Of a stretch of DNA of 64,000 nt, positions 3,717 to 44,894 are shown in pieces. Origin of the DNA: Pelagibacterales bacterium SAG-MED41 (GTDB lineage: Bacteria > Pseudomonadota > Alphaproteobacteria > Pelagibacterales > Pelagibacteraceae). Numbering within the stretch: the first letter of the stretch is position 1; every line of letters starts with the position of its first letter. The position numbers and the translations under genes were made by a program. The DNA lies in assembly GCA_014653545.1 (NCBI GenBank), contig JACWEJ010000003.1:1-64000 (forward strand). The letters run 5' to 3'. The notes beneath the pieces are model-generated. The model was not told the origin of the DNA and did not search any database. It worked only from the letters and a program-made list of their open reading frames with translations.

Positions 3717-3822
3717 TCTTTCCGCAAATACTTAAGTTTTTGCGGTGCTCTTGAAAACAAGAGTGTCGACACTAGTCAGCGAAGGTTCGCCCACTAGTGC
3801 GATAGGTGTTGGACGTTATAAA
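3717..3822 (+). ncRNA. structured 5' leader upstream of ffh (probable 'ffh' motif reported for Cand. P. ubique)
   Basis: hairpins CCGCAAA..TTTGCGG, CTCTTG-AAAA-CAAGAG, CACTAGT..ACTAGTG with nested GCGA-AGGT-TCGC; locally GC-rich; directly 5' of ffh. Confidence 0.75.
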
Positions 3823-41914: not shown

Positions 41915-42508
41915 TTATCCTATTAAAAATACTCCAAGTTTAGAAAAAAGATTTTTCATCTCTAAATTACTTTTTTTAATTAGCGAAATTTTATCTTCAT
42001 TTACTCCAATAACTTTTTTAATTGCTATATTTTGACTCTCACAATAATTGAAAAGATCTTTAATTGTACACATATGTAAATTAGGAGTATTAAACCAAGT
42101 ATTTGGTAAAGTCTTTGTAATAGGCATTTTACCAAATAATAATAAGCTTGTTCTCACTTTCCAATAACCAAAGTTTGGTATAGAAACAACTACAGATTTA
42201 CCAATCCTTAATAATTCTCTTAAAACTTTATCTGGTTGATAAAATGCTTGAAGAGTTTGACTCAAAACCACATAATCAAAAGATTGTTTTGGAAACTGAT
42301 AAAGTTCTGTTTCAGCATTTCCTTGAATTACAGGTAATCCTTTATAAATACATTCTTGAACATTATCTTGATTAAGCTCTAATCCTCTGACTTCAATATT
42401 TTTTTCTTTAACCAAAAAGCCCATTAGCGCACCATCCCCACAACCAACATCAAGTACTCTCGTATTGTTAGGTAATAAATCTGCAATTACTTTGAATTCT
42501 TTTTTCAT
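41915..42508 (-). CDS. metW: MetW-like methyltransferase
   Basis: RVLDVGCGDGALMGFL, YVVLSQTLQAFYQPDKVLRELLRIGK; follows metX. Confidence 0.92.
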   Translation of the reverse strand: MKKEFKVIADLLPNNTRVLDVGCGDGALMGFLVKEKNIEVRGLELNQDNVQECIYKGLPVIQGNAETELYQFPKQSFDYVVLSQTLQAFYQPDKVLRELLRIGKSVVVSIPNFGYWKVRTSLLLFGKMPITKTLPNTWFNTPNLHMCTIKDLFNYCESQNIAIKKVIGVNEDKISLIKKSNLEMKNLFSKLGVFLIG

Positions 42509-43632
42509 CTTTTAAATTTTTCATACATCGAGTCTAAAAAACCTTTTAAAGTTTTCAAAAACTCTGGTTCATTTACTAAAAAAGAGTCATGACCCTTATC
42601 AGTTACAATTTCTGAATAAGAGACATCTGCCCCAGAAGAGTTTAGCGCTATAACAATATCTTTATTTTCTTTGGTTGTATAAAGCCAATCAGAAGAAAAC
42701 GAGATAACTAAAAATTTTGTCTTTTGATTCTTAAAAGCCTCAGTAAGACCACCTTTAAATTGTTTAGTTAGATCAAAATAATCCATCGCTCGAGTAATAT
42801 ATAAGATGGAGTTAGCATCAAATCTTTCAACAAAAGAACTGCCTTGATGTCTTAAATAACTTTCAACCTGAAAATCTGCATTGAAACTAAATTCATAATC
42901 TGCTTTTTCTTGAAGTTTTCTTCCAAATTTTTCCTGCATTCCTTGCTCAGATAAATAACTTATATGACCAACCATTCTTGCAACCGAGAGCCCATTTTTT
43001 GGTTGAGTATTCTTTAAAAAGTATTTTCCTTTATCCCAAACAGGATCAGCCATTATTGCTTGACGAGCTAATTCATTCAATGCAATATTTTGTGCACTAT
43101 GACTTGCACTACAAGCAATGGGAATTGCTGAAAAAGTTTTATTAGGAAAAGTTGCGCAAAATTGTAATAATTGCATTCCACCCATAGAACCACCTGTAGC
43201 ACATAAAAGTTTTTCTATTCCAAGGTGATCAAGGAGAGACTCCTGAGCTCTAACAATATCTTTAATTGTAATAACTGGAAAATCTAATCCATATGGATGA
43301 TTGGTATCTTTATTTAAATCACTTGGTCCCCAAGATCCCATACAACCACCAATAACATTTGCACAAATTACAAAATACTTATCCGTATCGATTGCTTTAC
43401 CTGGTCCAACAGCTGAAACCCACCAACCCTCTTTTTTTGTAACGGGGTTAGTGCCCGCAACAAATTGATCTCCTGTTAAAGCGTGAAAAACTAAAATAGC
43501 ATTATCTTTATTCTTATTAAACTTCCCATAAGTTTCGTAGGCTAGGGGGAAATCTTTGATAGTTTTCCCACAGTCAAGCTTTAAAGGCTTGGTGACAGTA
43601 ATCTTATTTATATTCTCAGTTTTTTTATTCAT
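42505..43632 (-). CDS. metX: homoserine O-acetyltransferase
   Basis: FHALTGDQFVAG, GGSMGGMQLLQFC; start proposed at MNKKTENI (43632); track start 43662 lies on the terminator hairpin. Confidence 0.92.
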   Translation of the reverse strand: MNKKTENINKITVTKPLKLDCGKTIKDFPLAYETYGKFNKNKDNAILVFHALTGDQFVAGTNPVTKKEGWWVSAVGPGKAIDTDKYFVICANVIGGCMGSWGPSDLNKDTNHPYGLDFPVITIKDIVRAQESLLDHLGIEKLLCATGGSMGGMQLLQFCATFPNKTFSAIPIACSASHSAQNIALNELARQAIMADPVWDKGKYFLKNTQPKNGLSVARMVGHISYLSEQGMQEKFGRKLQEKADYEFSFNADFQVESYLRHQGSSFVERFDANSILYITRAMDYFDLTKQFKGGLTEAFKNQKTKFLVISFSSDWLYTTKENKDIVIALNSSGADVSYSEIVTDKGHDSFLVNEPEFLKTLKGFLDSMYEKFKR

Positions 43633-43634
43633 CC

Positions 43635-43660
43635 AAAAAAAAAGCCCAGCTAAACTGGGC
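43635..43660 (-). terminator. intrinsic terminator in metX leader
   Basis: minus strand GCCCAG-TTTAG-CTGGGC (43660-43644) followed by T9. Confidence 0.85.
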
Positions 43661-43665
43661 ATTCT

Positions 43666-43720
43666 CCCTTTTTAGCTAAATTTATTATGCGCTCGCAATA
43701 TGGTTAAATCAGCGCGTTAT
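43666..43720 (-). promoter_or_regulatory. SAM-II riboswitch aptamer upstream of metX
   Basis: minus strand gataacgcgctgatttaaccatattgcgagcgcataataaatttagctaaaaaggg, near-identical to the well-known marine SAM-II aptamer (GCGCUGAUUUAACC..UUGC..AGCGC..AUAAA..AGCUAAAAAGGG). Confidence 0.95.
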
Positions 43721-43721
43721 C

Positions 43722-43750
43722 TATTTACTAGATCATCATAAACTTGTCAA
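43722..43750 (-). promoter_or_regulatory. putative sigma70 promoter driving the metX riboswitch
   Basis: minus strand TTGACA, 17-nt spacer, TAAATA, just before the aptamer. Confidence 0.6.
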
Positions 43751-43811
43751 TTTTATATACGATAAAGAATTATAGAAAAACATCATCAATTTATATAATA
43801 AAAGATTAATA

Positions 43812-44894
43812 ATGAGATTACCAAAACCTAAAAGAATTGTAGCTGAAAAGTACGTAGCTGGTCTTAGCCTTTTCAAACAAAAAGTTGCTAAAACAAAATT
43901 ATCAGCAAATGAGTCAGCTTTAGGACCTAGCCCAAAAGCTATTAAAGAATATTTAAAAGTTTCAAAAAACTTTAAAAGATACCCAGATTCAGATGGCACT
44001 TTTTTGAGAAAAATCCTCTCAAAAAAATTTAAGTTAGATGTAAATAGAATAATATTAGGATCTGGATCAGATCAAATTTTTGAATTAGTTTGTAAAGCAT
44101 TTCTTGAAAAAGGAGATGAAGTTATTGTACCAAAATATAGTTTTATAATTTACAGAATTTACAGCAAGGTCAATGGTGCAAAAATTATTTATTCAAAAGA
44201 GGATAATTTTAAAATTTCAGTAAAAGATATTTTAAAAAATGTTACTAGAAAAACAAAGATTGTATTTTTAGCAAATCCTAACAACCCAACTGGGACGTAT
44301 ATTGATAAAAAACAATTGATTACTTTAAGAAGAAAGTTAAGAAGCAATATTCTTTTAGTTGTGGATGATGCTTACTATGAATATGTAAAATCTAAAGATT
44401 ATTCTTCTGGATTAAACTTATTTTCTAATTTTAAGAATGTTGTAATAACAAGAACGTTTTCAAAGATTTATGGTTTAGCAGGATTAAGAGTTGGATGGGG
44501 TTATGCTTCTAAAGATATAATTAATGCTTTAAATAGAATAAAACCACCATTTAATGTTGGTCGACCAGCTTTATTTGCAGCATCAGCAGCAATAAAAGAT
44601 AGCGCTTGGTTAAATAAAGAAATTAAACACGTAAATAATTGGAATAAAATATTATTTAAAGAGTTTAACAAAATGAAAATTATAAAAAACAAAAGTTTTA
44701 CTAATTTTATATTAATTAATTTTGATAAATTAAAAATCAAATCTCAAAAAGTTTTTCAGTTATTAGCTAACTCTGGAATACTTGTAAGAAAAATGGATGT
44801 TTATGGGATCAAAAATTCATTAAGAATAACAATTGGAAAAAGTATAGAAAATAAAAAACTTATTTTTAGAATGCGAAAAATATTAAATGTTTAA
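43812..44894 (+). CDS. hisC: histidinol-phosphate aminotransferase-like (HisC family)
   Basis: KLSANESALGPSPKA, LANPNNPTGTY, RTFSKIYGLAGLRVGWG. Confidence 0.88.
   Translation: MRLPKPKRIVAEKYVAGLSLFKQKVAKTKLSANESALGPSPKAIKEYLKVSKNFKRYPDSDGTFLRKILSKKFKLDVNRIILGSGSDQIFELVCKAFLEKGDEVIVPKYSFIIYRIYSKVNGAKIIYSKEDNFKISVKDILKNVTRKTKIVFLANPNNPTGTYIDKKQLITLRRKLRSNILLVVDDAYYEYVKSKDYSSGLNLFSNFKNVVITRTFSKIYGLAGLRVGWGYASKDIINALNRIKPPFNVGRPALFAASAAIKDSAWLNKEIKHVNNWNKILFKEFNKMKIIKNKSFTNFILINFDKLKIKSQKVFQLLANSGILVRKMDVYGIKNSLRITIGKSIENKKLIFRMRKILNV

Follow-up and report, generated by a model that had tools for sequence, protein, structure and literature searches.

The closest described relative of the leader analysed here is the SAM-II riboswitch that precedes metX in the Sargasso Sea metagenome (PDB 2QWY, Gilbert 2008). 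That RNA has been studied as an isolated aptamer, openly accessible papers on it mention neither a terminator nor an antiterminator, and in reviews and simulation papers the metX SAM-II serves as an example of direct RBS occlusion (PMC10907184, PMC12434664); a study of Sinorhizobium meliloti also calls it probably translational (PMC9373788). In 'Ca. Pelagibacter ubique', Meyer 2009 placed a SAM-II before SAR11_0217 metX (PMC2704228), and a 2016 mSystems proteome paper states in passing that SAM-II affects bhmT and metX transcription (PMC5069961), but in these two papers the expression platform of SAR11_0217 metX is not worked out and no antiterminator is described. Terminators were reported after many SAM-II aptamers by Corbino 2005 (PMC1273637), and according to Barrick & Breaker 2007, SAM-II is the class with the most frequent link to terminators, in alpha- and betaproteobacteria (PMC2258182). 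The metZ and metA leaders of S. meliloti both combine SAM-II with a terminator; in metA the layout is SD-AUG1-terminator-AUG2, translation at a distance was measured, and no antiterminator could be predicted (PMC9373788). According to later papers, the tandem leader of bhmT has SAM-II followed by an intrinsic terminator with transcriptional OFF logic, and then a SAM-V translational switch (PMC9481103, PMC11508383). Both SAM-II with a terminator and SAM-II at SAR11 metX are already known, and the element is in itself ordinary. A 2009 paper by Poiata is said to deal with the tandem SAM-II/SAM-V bhmT leader. No description of a metX antiterminator was found in the openly accessible literature.

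The DNA analysed here is a stretch of 64,000 nucleotides from Pelagibacterales bacterium SAG-MED41 (the window). It shares the metX gene and a near-identical aptamer with the Sargasso Sea locus, and its leader is orthologous to that of SAR11_0217. The minus strand carries, in this order, a promoter-like pair of hexamers, a SAM-II aptamer, a hairpin trailed by nine T, and the methionine/SAM genes metX and metW, the stretch from promoter to metX start measuring 120 nt; hisC is the divergent gene on the other side of the leader. The features are as follows.

43722–43750, minus strand: promoter-like TTGACA-17-TAAATA, read from the sequence
43666–43717, minus strand: SAM-II aptamer of 52 nt, equivalent to 2QWY (RF00521 match and near-identity to the crystallised metX SAM-II)
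43715–43711/43693–43689, minus strand: P1 of the aptamer
43698–43695, minus strand: P2b loop strand (P2 contacts from PMC3764141)
43676–43666, minus strand: P2 3′ strand (contacts from the same source)
43671–43677, minus strand: putative 5′ arm of the antiterminator, AGCTAAA, which shares positions with the P2b strand that contacts SAM (sequence, folding, comparative pairing)
43660–43662, minus strand: AUG1, beside an SD-like GGG (ATG in 26/55 related leaders)
43635–43660, minus strand: intrinsic terminator GCCCAGTTTAGCTGGGC and then T9 (sequence, terminator scan, conservation)
43648–43654, minus strand: putative antiterminator 3′ arm TTTAGCT, within the terminator loop and 3′ arm (invariant TAGCT, folding)
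42505–43632, minus strand: metX, homoserine O-acyltransferase (NCBIfam NF001209, 513 bits), start taken as AUG2 at 43632
41915–42508, minus strand: metW (TIGR02081 and PF07021), overlapping metX by 4 nt and presumably on one transcript with it

The window resembles the S. meliloti leaders in combining SAM-II with a terminator, and metA in its layout of two start codons, but unlike metA it has a predictable antiterminator. It also resembles the bhmT leader, except that the metX leader lacks SAM-V. The 2QWY RNA has been studied as a bare aptamer; in the window a near-identical aptamer comes with a terminator and a predicted antiterminator. Taken together, comparative and folding data suggest that the SAM-II riboswitch very probably acts on metX(-metW) as an OFF switch through attenuation of transcription; we infer SAM binding by the window RNA, termination, and the SAM dependence of that termination. 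This reading conflicts with the 'ribosome-blocking' account, because a near-identical RNA has been reviewed as a translational switch.

The promoter-like hexamers lie at 43750-43745 (TTGACA) and 43727-43722 (TAAATA), and transcription is predicted to start near 43715, where P1 has its 5′ edge. By consensus scan alone the promoter does not rise above chance level; TTGACA is kept in all 53 of 53 related leaders. The metX protein is 74-93% identical in relatives of the same genus, and database records with a nearly identical leader, where named, are Pelagibacteraceae.

Aptamer positions follow 2QWY, in which nucleotide n corresponds to window position 43718-n. The H-type pseudoknot motifs GAUUU, UUGC and GCUAAANAGG are all present, as the SAM-II motif demands, and the SAM_alpha model (RF00521) matches at 43725-43651 with 23.8 bits (E 0.003, 501 bases searched). 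Rfam at its gathering threshold returns no SAM match in the window, RF00521 requiring 36 bits; this score is a curator's cut-off and not a biological feature, and the element was found here by E-value search. The sequence of the 52-nt SAM-II RNA of structural work is printed in PMC8494917. Two close relatives, L008 and L013, contain exactly this crystallised RNA and also miss the gathering score, so the low score of the window aptamer reflects a limit of the model and not a bad aptamer. We take the printed sequence to be that of 2QWY, which fits the base contacts. In both relatives it precedes an identical GCCCAGTTTAGCTGGGC-T9, and the window leader is 91% identical to theirs over 88 nt, terminator included. 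The contacts C23-G42, U21-A45 and U20-A46 (PMC3764141) assign G42-A46, part of the 3′ strand GCUAAA, to P2b, the helix that binds SAM, while GGG closes P2a. The SAM-contact nucleotides are retained in the window aptamer, which may bind SAM and discriminate against SAH. Because this SAR11 subtype escapes the Rfam cut-off, methionine control is under-annotated in an extremely abundant marine group.

Between aptamer and gene, where an attenuator would have its terminator, lies a stem-loop (43660-43644) of 7 pairs, 5 of them GC, with a loop of 3 and T9 at 43643-43635. This is the sole terminator-like site in 43400-44000, and the string of hairpin plus T6 occurs nowhere else in the window, with 0 expected. 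A preliminary description of this DNA had named the promoter, the SAM-II aptamer and the terminator with T9, and its coordinates match letter for letter. It had further proposed that AGCTAAA pairs with TTTAGCT, and GGG (43668-43666) with CCC (43659-43657) in a second helix; both complementarities are present as written. In 2QWY numbering, the antiterminator would pair A41-A47 and G50-G52 with UUUAGCU and CCC of the terminator. Since it uses the P2 pseudoknot strand as well as terminator bases, it excludes both structures, and the incompatibility that had been claimed is borne out by base overlap and by the 2QWY contacts. Dinucleotide shuffling of the hairpin yields a tail-terminator helix as good as this one in about 1% of cases (p 0.010).

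Under the proposed mechanism, when SAM is scarce the aptamer 3′ strand AGCUAAA...GGG would pair with CCC and UUUAGCU as these leave the polymerase, and the resulting antiterminator hairpin would block the terminator, allowing metX to be transcribed. With SAM bound, the P2 pseudoknot would hold the 3′ strand. The hairpin GCCCAG/CUGGGC would then form, and the polymerase would halt at the U9 tract, immediately ahead of the start codon. The preliminary description had put this as SAM freeing the terminator arm. That holds in so far as the terminator is predicted upon sequestration, but the wording is amended here, as SAM itself would capture the 5′ strand of the antiterminator (2QWY nt 42-52) in the pseudoknot.

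The nascent RNA was folded at successive transcript lengths with the 3′ strand free or blocked, the blocking of 11 nt of this strand being a stand-in for the SAM-bound pseudoknot. With the strand free, the antiterminator had a probability of 0.96-0.99 at lengths 73-77, and still of ~0.88 up to 80, the terminator winning only after most of the U-tract is free. With the strand blocked, the terminator reached 0.83-1.00 from length 76 and 1.00 from length 77. A second calculation, ending at the hairpin, gave P(terminator) of 0.02 in the free state, and 0.98 on sequestration (a set that includes P1); blocking a control stretch in loop L1 instead left it at 0.02. An antiterminator when the pseudoknot strand is free and a terminator when it is sequestered is the behaviour that the preliminary description had led us to expect. 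Full-length folding counts against the attenuator reading, as the terminator then wins even without SAM; for this reason the switch must be kinetic, and we predict that the decision would be made while the polymerase sits on the U-tract. Full-length MFE folding was rejected as a test, as A/G pairing with the U-tract contributes to the terminator and masks the switch. Across 31 leaders, 12 were predicted to pass from antiterminator to terminator on sequestration of the 3′ strand, and none did so with the control stretch blocked. Several relatives, including L028-L030 of another SAR11 family, gave the terminator in both states by equilibrium folding, which also counts against attenuation.

Among 55 unique SAR11 leaders of the window type, the hairpin is nearly invariant. 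The terminator loop varies between TTT, TAT and TCT, whereas TAGCT, on which the antiterminator depends, is constant, and the T-run of nine is found in 52 of the 55. The other SAR11 family (L028-L030 and others) has a wholly different stem, GCCGCC...GGCGG or ACCACC...GGTGG, and a loop TTAGTTG(T) whose complement, (A)CAGCTAA, lies in the aptamer tail; in L126, TAGCTGT stands against ACAGCTA of the tail.

Beyond SAR11, a scan of 85,462 genomes found at least 119 loci with the SAM-II pattern, and the matches listed include SAR11, SAR116, Magnetospirillum, Leucothrix, Methylibium, Inhella, a Desulfobacteraceae MAG and more; viral contigs gave no match to the aptamer pattern. Downstream genes, named from protein starts without a family search, include metX, metZ/metY-type sulfhydrylases, metA and metK. 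In gamma, beta and delta leaders, a complement of the tail lies inside terminators of unrelated sequence, with tail-terminator pairings of TTGGCTGC x GCAGCTAA in L077, TAGCGGC x GCCGCTA in L101, TTTGGCGGCA x TGCCGCTAAA in L065, CTTTGGCTGCA x TGCGGCTAAAG in L033 and CTTTAGC x GCTAAAG in L091. The GCUAAA core offers no possible covariation, because SAM binding fixes it. In the 5′ flank outside the ligand pocket (-1 to -4), leaders form 39 paired positions with their own terminators and 25.3 +/- 4.3 with swapped ones (7/2000); for whole helices in a lineage-thinned set (n=27) the values are 16.48 and 14.30 +/- 0.43, with 0/5000 swaps reaching the own value. Swap tests of this kind remove relatedness only in part. 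The antiterminator pairing is thus kept in SAR11 and covaries in other proteobacteria, as the preliminary description would have it, and contacts, nascent folding and covariation together point to an antiterminator that excludes both the ligand-bound aptamer and the terminator and that forms first in time.

In canonical alphaproteobacteria the terminator complements AGGUCGG (P2a), the stretch of tail that follows. The swap test was not significant in this group (442/5000 reach the own value), as is expected when nearly all members share AGGUCGG. In the classical alphaproteobacterial leaders L157-L246, AGGUCGG faces CCGACCU or CCUGACC in the terminator, and the antiterminator register appears to differ from that of SAR11 and gammaproteobacteria. 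A count of anchored GCTA complements was set aside as too permissive, at 23/32 against 16.5 in shuffles with a shuffle maximum of 23. An independent case comes from the window's own genus: in L247 (1389-1566) a sulfhydrylase gene is preceded by a tandem of SAM-II, a terminator and SAM-V, of which Rfam detects the SAM-V part only. Its SAM-II tail is GCTAAAGCG and not GCTAAAAAGGG, and its terminator loop is CGCTTTAGT; the altered tail is matched by its own terminator loop, which indicates that tail and terminator changed together. In the betaproteobacterial metX leaders L065, L098, L115, L145 and L146, RF00521 scores above gathering, mostly with a terminator following. A 2014 paper proposed a new 'metXZ' pseudoknot/terminator element at this very position and placed SAM_alpha only in Rhizobiales and Rhodobacterales (PMC4239095); the 'metXZ' element and the betaproteobacterial SAM-II may be identical.

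The choice of start codon bears on whether the riboswitch acts on translation. If it did so exclusively, the SAM pseudoknot would hide the Shine-Dalgarno GGGAG and initiation at AUG1 would be blocked, in agreement with GGG being the end of P2a, with AUG1 being in frame with metX in the window, and with the reviewed status of the Sargasso RNA. Related leaders argue otherwise: a conserved start codon a few nt past the aptamer SD is absent from this set, as AUG1 is ATG in fewer than half of the 55 and is replaced by the stop TAG in 8, the rest having TTG, TCG, ACG and others, while an AUG two nt past the T-run is kept in 49/55. As AUG1 is poorly conserved and the later AUG is kept, AUG1 is probably not the start codon, and the most likely translation start is 43632, with GGG lying 33 nt upstream of it. 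Long ORFs in the window show no enrichment of SD-like motifs ahead of them (8/57 against 7/57 at a control position, a crude and weak measure with start codons taken mechanically), and the conserved terminator and its complement in the tail would be left unexplained. We therefore regard translational control alone as extremely improbable, and the preference of the preliminary description for attenuation over Shine-Dalgarno occlusion as the sole mode is supported.

Attenuation could also be joined by a second layer, in which the aptamer SD aids the distant AUG2 in read-through mRNA. The identical layout of S. meliloti metA, where AUG2 needs a distant SD (PMC9373788), speaks for such dual control. 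We nevertheless consider it unlikely, as the SD-like stretch differs among relatives (AGGG, AGGA, AGGT), the antiterminator would occupy GGG in the ON state, and the window lacks SD enrichment; a minor translational component may still accompany attenuation. The same metA leader lends something to the idea that the hairpin terminates or attenuates constitutively, or makes a small RNA, uncoupled from SAM binding: its terminator is real, yet no SAM-driven antiterminator is predictable, and in the window full-length equilibrium favours the terminator. Covariation of the tail complement across lineages and the switch predicted at nascent lengths make such uncoupling very unlikely.

SAM-dependent attenuation remains the preferred reading and is well supported; what is new is that the model SAM-II RNA would have an attenuator as its natural expression platform. 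More broadly, it is likely that the Sargasso metX SAM-II (2QWY) acts as an attenuator in its natural SAR11 leader, that its apo state is an antiterminator using the SAM-contacting P2b strand and not an open single strand, and that this P2b register is common to SAR11-type and several gamma and beta leaders, with P2a used in classical alphaproteobacteria. The point has consequences, since the metX aptamer has been treated in structural, smFRET, NMR and simulation work as a translation switch in which a free 3′ strand means ON. If an antiterminator decided over ~15 nt of transcription is the natural ON state, aptamer folding kinetics against polymerase speed would set the response, and under this kinetic reading equilibrium SD exposure would not.

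Two minor observations were made besides. In L010, the DNA immediately upstream of the metX promoter contains a duplicated CCTTTATCGTATATAAA(G/A) stretch, and the neighbours of L010 lack the duplication. In the window, an ffh sRNA motif lies at 3755-3807 on the plus strand (RF01793, 42.4 bits), a known SAR11 element usually found upstream of ffh.
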